A stretch of DNA of 12,364 bases from Candidatus Desantisiibacteriota bacterium (GTDB taxonomy: Bacteria > UBA9089 > CG2-30-40-21): positions 1 through 12,364 of the forward strand of contig JACQYP010000007.1 of the NCBI GenBank assembly GCA_016208205.1, written 5' to 3'. The number at the start of each line of letters is the position of its first letter. Position 1 is the stretch's first letter. Below the pieces are notes generated by a model. That model saw only the letters and a program-made list of their open reading frames with translations, ran no database searches and was not told where the DNA came from. Both the position numbers and the translations under genes were made by a program. This document shows, one piece after another, positions 690-12,091 of the stretch.

Positions 690-743
690 CGTGTCCGTAG
701 GGTAGGACAGACATTCCTGTCTGTCTCTTATCTCACGGACACG
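690..743. repeat. Nested palindromic repeat before the PBP gene
   Basis: There are two concentric hairpins. The outer arms are CGTGTCCGT (690-698) and ACGGACACG (735-743), a perfect 9-bp match. Inside, GACAGACA (706-713) pairs with TGTCTGTC (718-725) around a 4-base TTCC loop. The inner hairpin has the same 8-bp stem and 4-base loop design as the one at 11612-11631 (CACAGGCA, AGAA, TGCCTGTG). The element ends 18 bases before the PBP start codon, so it would lie in that gene's leader. There is no U-tract to suggest a terminator. It looks like a dispersed repeat. Confidence 0.7.
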
Positions 744-3118: not shown

Positions 3119-4369
3119 TTATTTCTCTATCAATACCTGCCTTTTTGAACATTTATATTGTGGTTTTGTAGCTGATATAAAATTACTTGCTGGCTCATTG
3201 CATAGATTTTCAAAGAGTTCCATATCGTAAAGCGGTATTTTTTCTTCATCTTCGACAAAATACTCTTTAACCTTAGAGATATCATATTTTTTATCCCATA
3301 ACAGGTTACTGGTCTTTGCCTCAAGGAAACAAAACCTTATCTTTAATGTCACCTTGCGATTAATACTCGGAATATCATAGTAAATATATCGCCGTTCCTC
3401 TTCTGAATAACGGCTTTTAGTAGTTATCATCTTTTCTTTTTTATCAATAAATTCCATTATTTCAAGAGCAAACAACCACTGAACACCGGAGGAAGCACAC
3501 AAGTCTATTATTGCCTCAGGATTTTGCAAAGACAAGGATAGAGGTATCACCTCTGACACTGGTTTGTCCTTTGCCGAAGAGGTAGCACCTGTCAGAGGTG
3601 CTACCTCTCCGGCAAGTGGCAACTCATTTATTCCCTGCAATATCTCCTCATTGATATAGAATGAACTTTCCTCTTGTATCCTTTCCTTAAATGCTTCAAC
3701 AATCCTTTTGGTTATTTCTTCTGCCTTTTCATCTGATAACAGGACAAGTATTCCAACGTTGTTGATACCATCTATATTCAATATTGGTGGAAGTTTTTTC
3801 TGTATCTCCACCCTTTTGGATAAAATCTTCTTTGAGGCAGAGACTGTTCCTTGTCCTGATAGTAGGGCGGGTTTAGAACCCGCCCCTACCCCTGTTTGTC
3901 CTGTCTCTTCCATGAAATCCTTAAGATTTTGATAACAACTCTGTCCAAGTAGGCGGGTGAATGATGAAGATTTACTATTACTTTGTGCCTCTGTCCCTTC
4001 TGCCTTTGTGCCTTTGTGCTTCTCTCCCTCTCCTGATGGGAGAGGGATGGGGAGAGGGTTCAATTGTGCCTCTGTGCCTTCTTCTATAATACTTACGGCT
4101 TTTTCATAAAGACATTTTGCAGCCTTATTGTCTCCAAAATACTCGTAAACCACGCCAAGATTATTGCAAGTAAATATGTTGCCGGGGTTATTTTTTATAG
4201 CTTTTTCAAGATGAAATTTAGCATCATGCCATAGCCCAATCGTTATACATCTGGTTCCATACCGGCTATCACTTACAGCCATAGAACGCATATTTGTACA
4301 GCCGGTTGTACTACTTATGACCATTATCAGCAGGATAATTTGTGCAAAACAGGTGAGATTAGATAGCAA
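3119..4369 (-). CDS. TPR-containing lipoprotein with in-frame palindromic repeat insertions
   Basis: This 416-residue protein begins with a lipoprotein-type signal peptide: a hydrophobic stretch at about residues 8-20, then STTGC with C24 as the lipidation site. One or two TPR-like helical repeats follow (about 45-95, with EKAIKNNPGN and YEYFGDNKAAKCLYEKAV). The C-terminal half (about 200-416) is a mixed alpha/beta region resembling periplasmic CsgG/LpoB/TolB-N-like domains only in general pattern; I do not recognise the family. The middle is interrupted by low-complexity inserts that coincide with DNA palindromes: residues about 97-128, 159-174, 250-268 and 270-278. The start is TTG with AGAGG six bases upstream; a later ATG would cut into the signal peptide. 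It lies 76 bases downstream of the cyclophilin gene on the same strand and may share its transcript. The role is unknown, probably an outer-membrane or periplasmic accessory protein. Confidence 0.8.
   Translation of the reverse strand: MLSNLTCFAQIILLIMVISSTTGCTNMRSMAVSDSRYGTRCITIGLWHDAKFHLEKAIKNNPGNIFTCNNLGVVYEYFGDNKAAKCLYEKAVSIIEEGTEAQLNPLPIPLPSGEGEKHKGTKAEGTEAQSNSKSSSFTRLLGQSCYQNLKDFMEETGQTGVGAGSKPALLSGQGTVSASKKILSKRVEIQKKLPPILNIDGINNVGILVLLSDEKAEEITKRIVEAFKERIQEESSFYINEEILQGINELPLAGEVAPLTGATSSAKDKPVSEVIPLSLSLQNPEAIIDLCASSGVQWLFALEIMEFIDKKEKMITTKSRYSEEERRYIYYDIPSINRKVTLKIRFCFLEAKTSNLLWDKKYDISKVKEYFVEDEEKIPLYDMELFENLCNEPASNFISATKPQYKCSKRQVLIEK
3541..3615. repeat. Palindromic repeat D inside the lipoprotein gene
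   Basis: The arms at 3571-3590 and 3596-3615 are complementary at 19 of 20 positions around the 5-base loop GTCAG; the core is AGAGGTAGCACCT with its exact complement. A further partial copy, GAGGTATCACCTCTGACA at 3541-3558, matches the reverse complement of 3590-3607 at 17 of 18 positions. The whole block is translated on the minus strand as residues of about 250-278 (LPLAGEVAPLTGATSSAKD and SEVIPLS), so the palindrome adds sequence to the protein without breaking its frame. Confidence 0.75.
3862..3889. repeat. Palindromic repeat C inside the lipoprotein gene
   Basis: GTAGGGCGGGTT (3862-3873) pairs with AACCCGCCCCTAC (3877-3889), giving 12 base pairs with one bulged C and a 3-base loop. It is much richer in G and C than its surroundings. 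On the minus strand it is read as part of GVGAGSKPALLSGQG (about residues 160-174), a low-complexity peptide between helical segments. This is a different repeat family from the ones at 3571 and 4024. Confidence 0.72.
3981..4071. repeat. Palindromic repeat A (48 bases) plus CTTTGTGCC-type repeats inside the lipoprotein gene
   Basis: TCCCTCTCC (4025-4033) and GGAGAGGGA (4039-4047) form a perfect 9-bp stem. The full 48-base unit at 4024-4071 recurs at 11559-11606 with 46 of 48 identities, and a diverged copy lies at 7986-8023. The flank at 3981-4020 carries copies of CTTTGTGCC. On the minus strand this unit is read as NPLPIPLPSGEGE, then KHKGTKAEGTEAQ. The copy in the folate cyclo-ligase gene is read in another frame. 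Confidence 0.82.
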
Positions 4370-5641: not shown

Positions 5642-6632
5642 AATTTGCCCTCAATCTCATCCGTATCTTATTTTCTGATAAATGATTCAGCTTAGCTACG
5701 AAGATTATCCTTAACAGGTTTGTTTCCATCTCTTTCAAGAGATAATACCTGATTAACGGCTCTGGACCAAAAAATATCAGATTAGCCTGTTTCAGATAAT
5801 TAAGGATATGATTATCTGAGACAACCTCATACTTCCAGAATAATCTTTCTTCAGCCCAACCTTCCATGACCAGATCCTGATAACCCTTAATCTCTGAAAA
5901 TATATCCCATGACTTACTAAAAAGCTTAAGGAAGAAATCCTTGCTTATGCTTCCATCATCAAAAAGCATCTGCCAGAGATAATCTGTCTCAACCTGAGCA
6001 TGGGTTAATCTGAGAAAGGTATGAATATTTATAAGGTCAATCTGCTTTTGATAATAAGTAATCAGAAAAGAGTTTTTACTCTTTTTAGCTTCAGATGTCA
6101 AATATTGCCACATAACTTTATCAATGGCTTGACTTATCCAAAATACCTCATTGTTGCCAGAGGCTACCCCTTTCCTCTCCATTTCCATGATAACCTGCCC
6201 AGATGCTTCTTTTAGATATTCCGGAGCATCTCTCCATTTTCCTTCAATCATTAACCGAAGATTTTCTAAAGGTGTCAGTCCAAGTATGCTGAATGGTTCA
6301 TCTACCGGCTCACCGTAATATTTTGTTTCAAGCAATATCTTGAGGTTGTAAAAGTCATGAGGGATACGAAGAAGGTGGATATAGTGCTGTTCTGGAGACA
6401 ATACCTCCAGAAAACTCAATATCTTGTATAACTCATTACTCAACCCATCCTCAAAGTCAAAGAGATTTCCCACATCATTGAAAGCTTCAGCATATTCTGT
6501 ATTTCGTAGAATAGATAATGCCCTTGTTCCATCCTCAGCAGAGATTAGCCGTTCCACAGTCGGTCTGTCTAATAGATAATTTTCCAATGCCCTAACCCTT
6601 GCTACAGCATAGGTATATCTCGTGTCAGTCAT
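5634..6632 (-). CDS. atpC: V/A-type ATPase subunit C (AC39/subunit d family)
   Basis: The 332-residue protein matches the AC39-type subunit that links the rotor stalk to the membrane c-ring in V/A-ATPases. The N-terminal segment (YAVARVRALENYLLDRPTVERLI) and the repeated helical pattern with LLRIPHDFYNLKILLETKYYGE (about residues 88-109) are typical, as is the length. The start has GAGGAG seven bases upstream of the ATG. It lies between E and F in the standard order. The gap to the upstream E gene (157 bases) is filled by a palindromic repeat, which may affect the ratio of E to C and F in the transcript. Confidence 0.9.
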   Translation of the reverse strand: MTDTRYTYAVARVRALENYLLDRPTVERLISAEDGTRALSILRNTEYAEAFNDVGNLFDFEDGLSNELYKILSFLEVLSPEQHYIHLLRIPHDFYNLKILLETKYYGEPVDEPFSILGLTPLENLRLMIEGKWRDAPEYLKEASGQVIMEMERKGVASGNNEVFWISQAIDKVMWQYLTSEAKKSKNSFLITYYQKQIDLINIHTFLRLTHAQVETDYLWQMLFDDGSISKDFFLKLFSKSWDIFSEIKGYQDLVMEGWAEERLFWKYEVVSDNHILNYLKQANLIFFGPEPLIRYYLLKEMETNLLRIIFVAKLNHLSENKIRMRLRANYV

Positions 6633-6661
6633 TGCCGGCTCCTCTTTTGTAACCGTAATTA

Positions 6662-6756
6662 TGGAGTGCGAAAGCTTACTTGCTTTCGCTTTTCCGTTTG
6701 CATAGATTGCTTGCTACATATAGCTAAAGCGGTAGCAAGTAAGCTACCGCACTCCA
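6662..6756. repeat. Nested palindromic element with TTACTT-loop hairpins between ATPase E and C genes
   Basis: The outer arms TGGAGTGCG (6662-6670) and CGCACTCCA (6748-6756) are perfectly complementary. Inside are two hairpins of the same design: GCGAAAGC-TTACTT-GCTTTCGC (6668-6689) and GCGGTAGC-AAGTAA-GCTACCGC (6729-6750). Flanking GTAACCG (6649-6655) and CGGTTAC (6787-6793) form a further short inverted pair, the latter overlapping the E stop codon. A second, longer member of the family lies at 8198-8344. Confidence 0.8.
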
Positions 6757-6789
6757 AACCGTGAACCGATAACTGTCCATTGTAAGCGG

Positions 6790-7377
6790 TTACCCAAATA
6801 ATATCTCAGCAACATCATGCGTTATCTCTTCTCGAATATTGTGCAGCATTGCCTCAAAGCTACAATTCAACTCTTGTTTTTTGTATTGGAGAATGAACCC
6901 ACCCTTAATAGCTGCCTCTTGTGATGAAAGTTGCAAGTTGCTGCCAATTTTGGCATTCACCTCTTGGAGTACCTTATTAATTAGTTGCTGCCTTTCTTTG
7001 TTCACGCAAACAACAGCTATTTTATCATCATCTGGTTTGACAGCAGAAAGCAATAATTTATTTACAAGATACCTATAATCAGTATCGCTCAGGCTTGTCA
7101 AATAATCCAGGGCACCAGAAAAGGCATTTCCAATCTGTATCTCTTTTTCCTGCAAAAGTTGTTTCCGGCATTCGAGCCTATTCATAGTAAGCTTCCGCTT
7201 TCTTTCCTCTTCTACCTGATGTTTTATCCCTTCCCACAGATTTTGTCTACTCTCATCAGCCTGTTTTTGAGCCTCAGCAACTATGGATTCTGTCTGTTTA
7301 GCTGCTTCAGCCATAATTGACTCTACGGTTTGTTGTGCTTCTTTTTGAATCCGATGGAGAATGTCTTCAAGTGCCAT
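6790..7377 (-). CDS. atpE: V/A-type ATPase subunit E
   Basis: The 195-residue product is the peripheral-stalk subunit E. Residues 1-95 are a long charged, alanine-rich helix (MALEDILHRIQKEAQQTVES and onward), expected to form a coiled coil with the partner stalk subunit. The C-terminal globular part (about 100-195) has the family's GGFILQYKKQELNCSFEAML segment (residues 159-178) and ends in EILFG. The start has AGGAG seven bases upstream. It follows K by 47 bases. The partner stalk subunit (G/H) is not in the window. Confidence 0.9.
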   Translation of the reverse strand: MALEDILHRIQKEAQQTVESIMAEAAKQTESIVAEAQKQADESRQNLWEGIKHQVEEERKRKLTMNRLECRKQLLQEKEIQIGNAFSGALDYLTSLSDTDYRYLVNKLLLSAVKPDDDKIAVVCVNKERQQLINKVLQEVNAKIGSNLQLSSQEAAIKGGFILQYKKQELNCSFEAMLHNIREEITHDVAEILFG

Positions 7378-7931: not shown

Positions 7932-8079
7932 GTAACTACTCAGGTATTATTCAGGAGTCAGAAGTCAGAATCCAGAATAGACATTCCCCTCTCTCCTCAC
8001 GGGAGAGGGACGGGGTGAGGGTTCTAACCTCTACGAATAATGCGAGCAGATTCTCTCATTCTGACTCCTGACTAGTTAC
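7932..8079 (-). repeat. Leader palindrome element bounded by inverted 11-mers, 5' of the ATPase genes
   Basis: In minus-strand sense the leader opens with GTAACTAGTCA (8079-8069), 4 bases after a -10 box, and closes with TGAGTAGTTAC (7942-7932), 28 bases before the SD of the K gene. Within it TCAGGAGTCAGAA (7951-7963) is exactly complementary to TTCTGACTCCTGA (8059-8071). The centre holds a diverged copy of repeat A. The parts are nested, as if repeats had been inserted into one another. Confidence 0.6.
7986..8023. repeat. Third, diverged copy of palindromic repeat A (intergenic)
   Basis: CTCTCC (7991-7996) pairs with GGAGAG (8002-8007) around a 5-base loop, followed by GACGGGGTGAGGGTTC. It is clearly related to 4024-4071 and 11559-11606 but lacks their TCAA(C/T)TGTGCCT tail. 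Unlike those two, it lies outside any gene, in the ATPase leader. Confidence 0.75.
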
Positions 8080-8165: not shown

Positions 8166-8406
8166 GTAACTACTCAGCAAGAGGAATTTACCACGAAATT
8201 TGGAGTGCGAGAGCTTACTTGCTCTCGCTTTGCTTTGAAAAAGCTTACTTGCTTTTGTTCTGCAAGTTGCTGTATCGCAAAAACGGTAGCAAGTAAGCTA
8301 CCGTAAAAACAAAGCGAAAGCAAGTAAGCTTTTGCACTCCAAATAAGCGGACTTTTGCATATGAGTAGTTACTCTCAGTGGTAAATTCCCCTTGCTGAGT
8401 AGTTAC
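8166..8406 (+). repeat. 241-base nested palindromic element forming most of the degP leader
   Basis: The outer arms at 8166-8194 and 8378-8406 are complementary at 28 of 29 positions and begin and end with GTAACTACTCA and its inverse. A second layer is ATTTGGAGTGC (8198-8208) with GCACTCCAAAT (8334-8344). Inside lie four hairpins with TTACTT or AAGTAA loops: 8207-8228, 8239-8256, 8283-8304 and 8314-8335. A further TGAGTAGTTAC lies at 8362-8372. The inner block is a longer relative of 6662-6756. Confidence 0.85.
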
Positions 8407-11434: not shown

Positions 11435-12091
11435 TTAAACATTAGTTACAATCATTCGTTTCTCGGTGATAATTATTCCCACAGCCATATCATGGCTTTC
11501 AACTGGAACAGCATCTATTAGCTGACATTCAAAACACACACCAATAAGGCATACATTACTCCCTCTCCTCATGGGAGAGGGATGGGGAGAGGGTTCAACT
11601 GTGCCTTTAGTCACAGGCAAGAATGCCTGTGCTACCTTTGTGCCTTCTATTTGCTCAATCATTCGATCATAATACCCACCGCCATATCCTATTCTGTAAC
11701 CTTGCAGGTCAAAGGCTACCCCTGGAACAATGATCGTCTCTACCTCAGAAAGTGGAACAAATCTCTGGTAAATTTCCATAGGCTCCAGAATGCCATATGC
11801 CCCTTTTGCAAGTTCAATATCAAAATCATGCAACTCTGAAACAAGCAGTCTTTTATTTCCAATATCGGTTACAGGGACAAAAACCCTCTTGCCCTGTTGA
11901 ATAGCCTGCTTGATCATACCCTCTGTCTGTACCTCACTTCTGGTAGCAACATAAAATAAGATGCTTGATGATTCATGGAATTTCTCAAGACAAAATAGTT
12001 TTTCTGCAATCAACATACTCTTTTGGCATCTTTCCTCATGGCTTAATGCATTTCGTATGGATAAAATAGAGGTTCTTAATGATTTTTTCAT
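11435..12091 (-). CDS. 5-formyltetrahydrofolate cyclo-ligase with an in-frame repeat-derived insertion
   Basis: The enzyme (MTHFS family) converts 5-formyltetrahydrofolate and ATP to 5,10-methenyltetrahydrofolate, returning the storage form to the one-carbon pool. Family motifs are all present: R13 and nearby N-terminal residues, EVQT at 53-56 (folate site), PGVAFD at 123-128, GYGGGYYDR at 135-143 (ATP site), IGVCFECQ at 183-190, and PVESHD with IITE near the C-terminus. At 218 residues it is longer than the usual 180-200. The surplus lies between YYDR and IGV, where 39 residues replace the expected 10 or so. About residues 150-178 (GTKVAQAFLPVTKGT, then VEPSPHPSPMRRGSN) are encoded by two DNA palindromes. 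All catalytic motifs survive on both sides, so the enzyme is probably active. SD is weak (GGGTG). Its own promoter lies upstream at 12127-12154. Confidence 0.92.
   Translation of the reverse strand: MKKSLRTSILSIRNALSHEERCQKSMLIAEKLFCLEKFHESSSILFYVATRSEVQTEGMIKQAIQQGKRVFVPVTDIGNKRLLVSELHDFDIELAKGAYGILEPMEIYQRFVPLSEVETIIVPGVAFDLQGYRIGYGGGYYDRMIEQIEGTKVAQAFLPVTKGTVEPSPHPSPMRRGSNVCLIGVCFECQLIDAVPVESHDMAVGIIITEKRMIVTNV
11559..11645. repeat. Two adjacent palindromic repeats inside the folate cyclo-ligase gene
   Basis: Repeat A at 11559-11606 has the 9-bp stem TCCCTCTCC (11560-11568) and GGAGAGGGA (11574-11582) and matches 4024-4071 at 46 of 48 bases. Directly after it comes repeat B, CACAGGCA-AGAA-TGCCTGTG (11612-11631), then the 10-mer CTTTGTGCCT (11636-11645). 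The block's ends match the boundaries of the extra peptide in the protein. Confidence 0.85.

Follow-up and report, generated by a model that had tools for sequence, protein, structure and literature searches.

The window analysed here, a stretch of 12,364 nucleotides from a Candidatus Desantisiibacteriota contig (JACQYP010000007.1) and thus from a poorly known, uncultured group of bacteria, carries near its end a gene for 5-formyltetrahydrofolate cyclo-ligase (MTHFS) with an in-frame insert built of repeats. An earlier note on this DNA had reported such an insert, and we confirm it. Read in the direction of the gene, it consists of the GAAGGCACAAAG tract, element B, the AAAGGCACA tract and element A, each of which starts on a codon boundary and has a length that is a multiple of three (Table 1). 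Two palindromes in tandem and in frame were correctly described, but their limits had to be moved: the second begins four bases earlier than given, with a GTAG head at 11632-11635, and the first occupies 11555-11599. GGCACA (11600-11606), which had been counted into element A, is ruled out as part of it by the copies of A in a related genome, G001. Folded as single-stranded DNA, the 93 nt form two hairpins (z -3.6), and none of 200 shuffled sequences was equally stable. A scan of the window against Rfam returned no family reaching the gathering threshold. The sequence AAGGCACA is found on either side of B; a target duplication around B was rejected as unproved, because excising one copy together with B would break the frame.

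Table 1. Coordinates of the MTHFS gene, the parts of its insert and related repeats in the window.
Feature	Position	Strand	Basis and remarks
B-like hairpin GACAGACATTCCTGTCTGTC, near a GTAG, intergenic	704..725	+	sequence; nested in larger inverted repeat CGTGTCCGT / ACGGACACG (690-745), between ORF6N gene and penicillin-binding protein
Third palindrome in TPR lipoprotein ORF	3571..3615	.	overlaps 12 residues (LPLAGEVAPLTG) missing from 9/9 aligned homologues
Family C REP (GTAG head) in TPR lipoprotein ORF, peptide VGAGSKPAL	3862..3889	+	sequence and homologue alignment
Element A copy 2, in frame in TPR lipoprotein ORF (3119-4369), other frame than in MTHFS	4024..4071	-	sequence
Element A copy, intergenic, 71% over 48 nt	7987..8034	-	sequence
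MTHFS (5-formyltetrahydrofolate cyclo-ligase), 218 aa	11435..12091	-	PF01812, E 1.5e-44; solved relatives 1ydm, 1sou, 2jcb
Whole insert, 31 codons, 93 nt, residues 149-179, peptide EGTKVAQAFLPVTKGTVEPSPHPSPMRRGSN	11555..11647	-	homologue and 1ydm alignments
GAAGGCACAAAG tract	11636..11647	-	similar tracts in the loop of L001 and L002, both without palindromes
Element B, GTAG-type REP: GTAG head (11632-11635), 20-base palindrome CACAGGCATTCTTGCCTGTG (11612-11631), ACT; sequence GTAGCACAGGCATTCTTGCCTGTGACT	11609..11635	-	matches in G001-G004, covarying stem
AAAGGCACA tract, separates B and A	11600..11608	-	sequence; G001 copies of A
Element A, GTTGAACCC...GGGAGTAAT, REP-like, head GTTG not GTAG	11555..11599	-	boundaries set by G001 copies

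From 971 homologues found, 18 were aligned with the MTHFS of the window, 17 of which are comparable, P0013 being truncated. P0007 and P0008, named Candidatus Desantisbacteria, are near relatives of the window enzyme; P0008 is nearly duplicated by P0009 and P0011, which leaves fewer than 17 independent homologues. The insert peptide is missing from all 17. Homologues that share the peptide while lacking the DNA palindrome, proposed earlier as evidence against the insertion, were looked for in this set and 0/17 share it. The loop between YYDR and IGV counts 39 residues in the window enzyme versus 10-23 in the comparable homologues, an excess of 16-29; an extra length of 27-30 residues, as first estimated, holds against the distant norm of 10-11 but not against the closest relatives, most of which have 13-18 and one 23. 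Orthologues align in one frame before and after the insert, in agreement with the claim that the motifs on both sides remain in frame. When aligned to the solved MTHFS structure 1ydm, whose title names it just as a structural-genomics target, residues 155-182 are unmatched, and the piece after the insert follows in order, with a weak score when taken alone (9.4 bits). An AlphaFold model made from a 53-sequence alignment has a mean pLDDT of 89; the three ten-residue blocks of the insert score 40, 53 and 57, as against 84-98 for the rest of the protein, with values below 50 at segments 152-161 and 173-176, although low pLDDT is expected wherever no other row of the alignment covers a segment. 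The top twelve fold matches are all MTHFS or MTHFS-like structures. Fold and motifs are those of family PF01812, from which the protein differs by the 31-codon insert in the loop after GYGGGYYDR. Modelling of the insert, a check suggested at the outset, thus predicts a disordered loop in an intact fold, probably at the surface; the enzyme looks intact and would be expected to be active.

Element B has the form of a GTAG-type REP (repetitive extragenic palindrome), a palindrome in the range of 20-40 bp with an unpaired GTAG head (11612-11635), and dispersed copies with compensatory stem changes are present in the genomes of relatives. A pattern of GTAG plus B, allowing at most 3 mismatches, matched 102 times in G001, 41 times in G002, twice in G003 and 15 times in G004 (160 in total), and the backward control matched 0 times. 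The stem covaries, with 21 double-changed cells versus 5.7 in shuffles (0/500), in a set of 37 distinct variants among the matches listed, for which related sequences alone can beat shuffles; sliding the partner destroys the pairing. Of all tetramers next to G+C-rich hairpins, GTAG occurs most often: in 80 contigs or pieces of contigs (20 from each of G001-G004) it was counted 46 times at 194 hairpins, an enrichment of 15.6-fold relative to background, as compared with 2 counts at 77 hairpins in shuffled sequence; in G004 this enrichment was not seen (1 count at 32 hairpins). Traits of this kind characterise GTAG REPs in the accounts of PMC3733652 and PMC2817692. The B copy of the window is not extragenic, lying as it does inside MTHFS; the REP name is historical and intragenic GTAG REPs have been published. 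Nine of 40 family B sites in G002 fall in ORFs of at least 120 aa, 4 of them deep, and 0 of 8 in a G001 sample, so B is mostly intergenic in relatives and the copy in the window is atypical of its family. Some G001 copies stand 50-250 bases from contig starts and some are paired about 35 bases apart, as if beside a longer, assembly-breaking repeat.

The 48-base repeat to which element A belongs occurs three times in the window, at 4024-4071, 7987-8034 and 11559-11606. The head of A is GTTG in the MTHFS copy and ATTG in the copy within the TPR lipoprotein gene, and six of seven G001 copies have GTTG and one ATTG; as the head is mainly GTTG and not GTAG, we call A REP-like and not a GTAG REP. 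Its dispersal is seen in G001 (7 matches versus 1 in the control) and in G012 (65 A-like matches versus 0). It was not found above control in G002 (2 versus 10) or G004 (0 versus 3), had a single match in G003, and was absent from 35 of the 39 other genomes scanned. With two dispersed palindromes of unrelated families side by side and in frame in a conserved enzyme, the core of the earlier description is borne out. Element A encodes EPSPHPSPMRRGS in MTHFS and NPLPIPLPSGEGE in the TPR lipoprotein, in different frames, so the two copies are homologous as DNA and not as a selected peptide. The TPR form of the peptide recurs with its flanks in a Desantisbacteria ABC transporter ATPase (P0131), at 26 of 30 residues, a match at the protein level only. 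Where the TPR gene has its family C REP, the homologues are occupied by different sequence that is about as long or somewhat shorter, so that this is not evidently a clean insertion. Between the V-ATPase genes and a DegP-like protease, at 8166-8406 of the window, several hairpin repeats are bounded by inverted ends of 29 bases (97% complementary), forming a composite that resembles a MITE.

We compared the DNA of four near orthologues of the MTHFS gene (L001-L004; 64-72% identity in the best segment). The same loop of L003, from genome G003, contains GTAGGGGAGGGTTCTAAACCCGCCCT, an unrelated GTAG palindrome that encodes VGEGSKPAL and is 1 mismatch from a family, here called C, with 47 matches in G003. 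The loops of L001 and L002 have GGCACAAAG-type tracts only, and that of L004 is short. A survey of the phylum gave 17 loci in 17 of 19 genomes (G001-G004 included again), and among the 13 in which the loop was recovered by motif search the sole REP was that of G003. Different REPs, B in the window and family C in G003, therefore stand at the same point of MTHFS in two lineages; an enzyme of this size has few loops to spare, so same-site REPs need not imply targeting. An MTHFS tree, from which P0009, P0011 and P0013 were dropped, had 1 of 13 inner branches starred and was too weak to order the insertions. The record that contains L002 (DYDG01000058.1) is titled Marinifilum sp., but the MTHFS and the valyl-tRNA synthetase in it look like their counterparts from Desantisbacteria-like genomes, and it is possibly mislabelled or misbinned.

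The 47 family C matches in G003 merge into 46 sites (control 0). ORFs of 120 aa or longer contain thirty-two of these (70%), 29 of which are at least 25 residues from either ORF end. The ORF calls come from a simple longest-first rule and not from a gene finder, and by the same rule the coding fraction is 0.821 in a 109-kb sample; 70% in ORFs against 82% coding is a mild deficit, so placement is not fully random. The 32 sites are spread over 24 ORFs, with three in one gene for a RAYT (REP-associated transposase) and three more in its two neighbours. A Pfam scan of 19 of these 24 host ORFs and one G001 ORF (L229) gave matches at 1e-3 for 16 of the 20, some below the curated cut-off, and none for L245, L246, L255 and L285. 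The hosts include EPSP synthase, HypF, HypD, valyl-tRNA synthetase (ValRS), an HI0933-type flavoprotein, ferredoxin-like proteins, a helicase, a methylase and a RAYT, among others. In alignments to solved structures the inserts of ValRS and of EPSP synthase appear as gaps; HypD has a gap of just 5 residues at its REP, and a second, larger repeat-like insert at 102-136. Outside the lineage family C matched in 2 of 39 other genomes, 3 times altogether. Upstream flanks of the sites show no strong consensus and downstream flanks are T-rich. Target preferences for the GGCACAAAG tract, hinted at by two window genes, and for a TCAGAATTCAG-type tract were considered and set aside, since too few family C sites (2/46 in each case) have such a tract within 60 nt, versus 236/20,000 and 240/20,000 random positions, respectively.

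The aminoacyl-tRNA synthetases of G003 carry larger inserts. The one full-length ValRS found in this genome (L371, G003:C14) contains two inserts with repeats, one of them about 85 residues long and composed of several repeats, that are lacking in the G001, G002 and G004 orthologues (matched segments 71-92% identical), whose first loop is also variable. The isoleucyl enzyme, IleRS (L378, G003:C368), has two inserts absent from the G004 orthologue; these bear a related peptide, and their DNA contains GTAGGGGCAGACCTATGTGTCTGCCC units. Both genes are open throughout their aligned length. The repeat-rich inserts of L371 and L378 have a peptide of about 40 residues in common, and the ValRS of G001 (L373) has another insert, YSPLSKGAGGLLFPP, in a different loop and coded by a CCCCCTTATCAAAGGGGG palindrome.

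Genes with Y1_Tnp matches are present in all four relatives (G001-G004). Nine of the proteins were scored with NCBIfam REP_Tyr_transpos (cut-off 80): L276 (150.5 bits) and L275 (111.2) pass, L266 (65.6) and L270 (62.5) fall under the cut-off, possibly because of their inserts, and L267 is better matched by IS200 and by score is an ordinary IS200 transposase. Eight of the 12 Y1_Tnp loci have a GTAG hairpin in the gene or within 400 bases of it and four have none. L276, of G004, is flanked by several GTAG hairpins of a family other than B. L266 of G003 (6564-7274 of its locus) carries family C three times within its reading frame, and in the same genome L270 (3212-3868) has another GTAG pair inside the frame; GTAG REPs are likewise in the frame of L269 (2495-2863), a partial gene. 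These internal REPs might serve self-regulation or be a by-product of REPs crowding near the gene. A RAYT flanked by family B was not found among the 12 loci of G001-G004, and in G001, which has the most B matches, no GTAG hairpin was seen near the sole Y1_Tnp match, over 400 bases on one side and over the 71 bases to the contig end on the other. Action of a RAYT on these elements is likely, judging from the RAYTs with REPs in or beside them.

We consider it probable that two short mobile palindromes, B as a GTAG-type REP and A as a REP-like element with a GTTG head, entered a permissive loop of MTHFS, presumably at the surface. This reading builds on the identity of the elements, their dispersal in relatives, their in-frame position and their absence from orthologues. 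The likely mover would be a host-encoded RAYT, one of the Y1 transposases, which work on single-stranded DNA. Because the insert is divisible by three in length and free of stops, translation of the enzyme would run on through it, and the protein would keep its fold and gain a disordered loop of 31 residues whose peptide is itself probably neutral. Many other coding genes of the lineage have probably been invaded by the same process, with selection purging only those copies that break the frame or a core element.

Copying without a transposase, by hairpin-primed slippage, gene conversion or recombination between repeats, is unlikely as the means by which the palindromes spread. Head-to-tail expansions of 15 bases in host genes, encoding (SKPAL)n and (GLEWA)n, look slippage-like, but slippage leaves unexplained the GTAG head, the dispersal to unrelated sites and the RAYTs that carry REPs, and it may act afterwards. 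Such head-to-tail units are seen in L233 and L266 of G003, where one half of a REP is repeated in frame.

The earlier suggestion that the repeats are either tolerated or domesticated stands in its first part. Element A read in two frames, and an unrelated peptide at the same place in G003, argue for tolerance and not for a selected peptide. That the insert is kept as a useful MTHFS loop, for binding, regulation or stability, is quite improbable: a loop of variable length filled by different repeats in several relatives would suit repeated selection for a longer loop, but domestication is opposed by the unrelated peptides at one place, the two frames of one element, the low predicted order of the insert, DNA palindromes as intact as in recent insertions, and the many unrelated proteins invaded. 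An error of assembly or binning, to which a single contig and relatives known as metagenome assemblies would lend themselves, is very improbable in view of the frame, intact on both sides of the insert, and of an independent assembly whose MTHFS loop also holds an insert of this kind, with others in ValRS and IleRS. The element is, moreover, much shorter than usual sequencing reads, which far exceed it in length. Removal of the segment from the RNA or its skipping in translation, in the manner of bypassing elements, would fit the strong hairpins and is still hardly credible, because a skipped segment could lose the frame or hold stops and neither the MTHFS insert nor the in-ORF family C copies do so, the latter a weak count as those copies were chosen as open.

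Palindromic repeats inside genes have published precedents. The Rickettsia palindromic elements (RPEs), proposed earlier as the closest parallel, are likewise palindromic repeats found in frame in unrelated genes (PMC10969869, PMC3733652), as the MTHFS elements are. By the descriptions in these papers, however, RPEs are about 150 bp long and hosted by Rickettsia, and intragenic R. conorii repeats matching RPE-4 and RPE-6 are placed in the CGTC and not the GTAG super-family; the heads found here are GTAG or GTTG, not CGTC. A better match are the GTAG-tagged REPs, some of them intragenic, described in the text of PMC3733652: short palindromes with an unpaired GTAG head and several families per genome, most intergenic and some inside genes that include tRNA synthetases, where the inserts, it is argued, may be neutral in flexible loops. 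The same text reports different REPs at about the same recB site in two Xanthomonas species. The elements described here share the palindrome, the GTAG head, the multiple families and the intragenic copies, so that the kind is already known; the insert is better named an intragenic GTAG REP (B) with a REP-like element (A), both of which a loop tolerates. They differ in that the REPs of that account are mostly intergenic, whereas family C of G003 lies in ORFs nearly at the coding-density rate, and in their hosts, which here include MTHFS, EPSP synthase, HypD, HypF, ValRS, IleRS and a RAYT (compared with the text of PMC3733652). In the RAYT/TnpA-REP system, as described in PMC2817692, IS200/IS605-like transposase genes have REPs on both sides, as at L276 of G004; unlike in that description, REPs of G003 are also within RAYT frames (L266, L270 and the partial L269). 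Relative to the text of PMC3733652, the novelty here lies in the lineage, in how heavily coding DNA is used, in the core-enzyme hosts and in the reuse of one loop by unrelated REPs. Among open-licence PMC papers, none of the titles listed by a search for Desantisbacteria repeats concerned such inserts.

We hold it possible, if somewhat short of probable, that in this Desantisbacteria-like lineage the barrier that usually keeps REPs out of genes has for the most part gone: palindromes borne by RAYTs would become fixed in genes almost at the coding-density rate, loops would be refilled by unrelated REP families across species, essential enzymes and the RAYTs themselves would be partly REP peptide, and REP turnover would be a steady source of new loops. 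The MTHFS genes form a natural insertion series, one enzyme loop with different repeat DNA in related species and empty-loop orthologues to compare, which the tRNA synthetases with large repeat-derived inserts extend. This makes it testable how often mobile DNA supplies segments of bacterial proteins and whether the gain is neutral. It is also a warning that extra loops of environmental enzymes may be DNA parasites rather than adaptations. Mobile hairpins that are normally intergenic are found in a folate enzyme and in many core enzymes of a relative, where they leave the frame unbroken and would be read as new stretches of protein.
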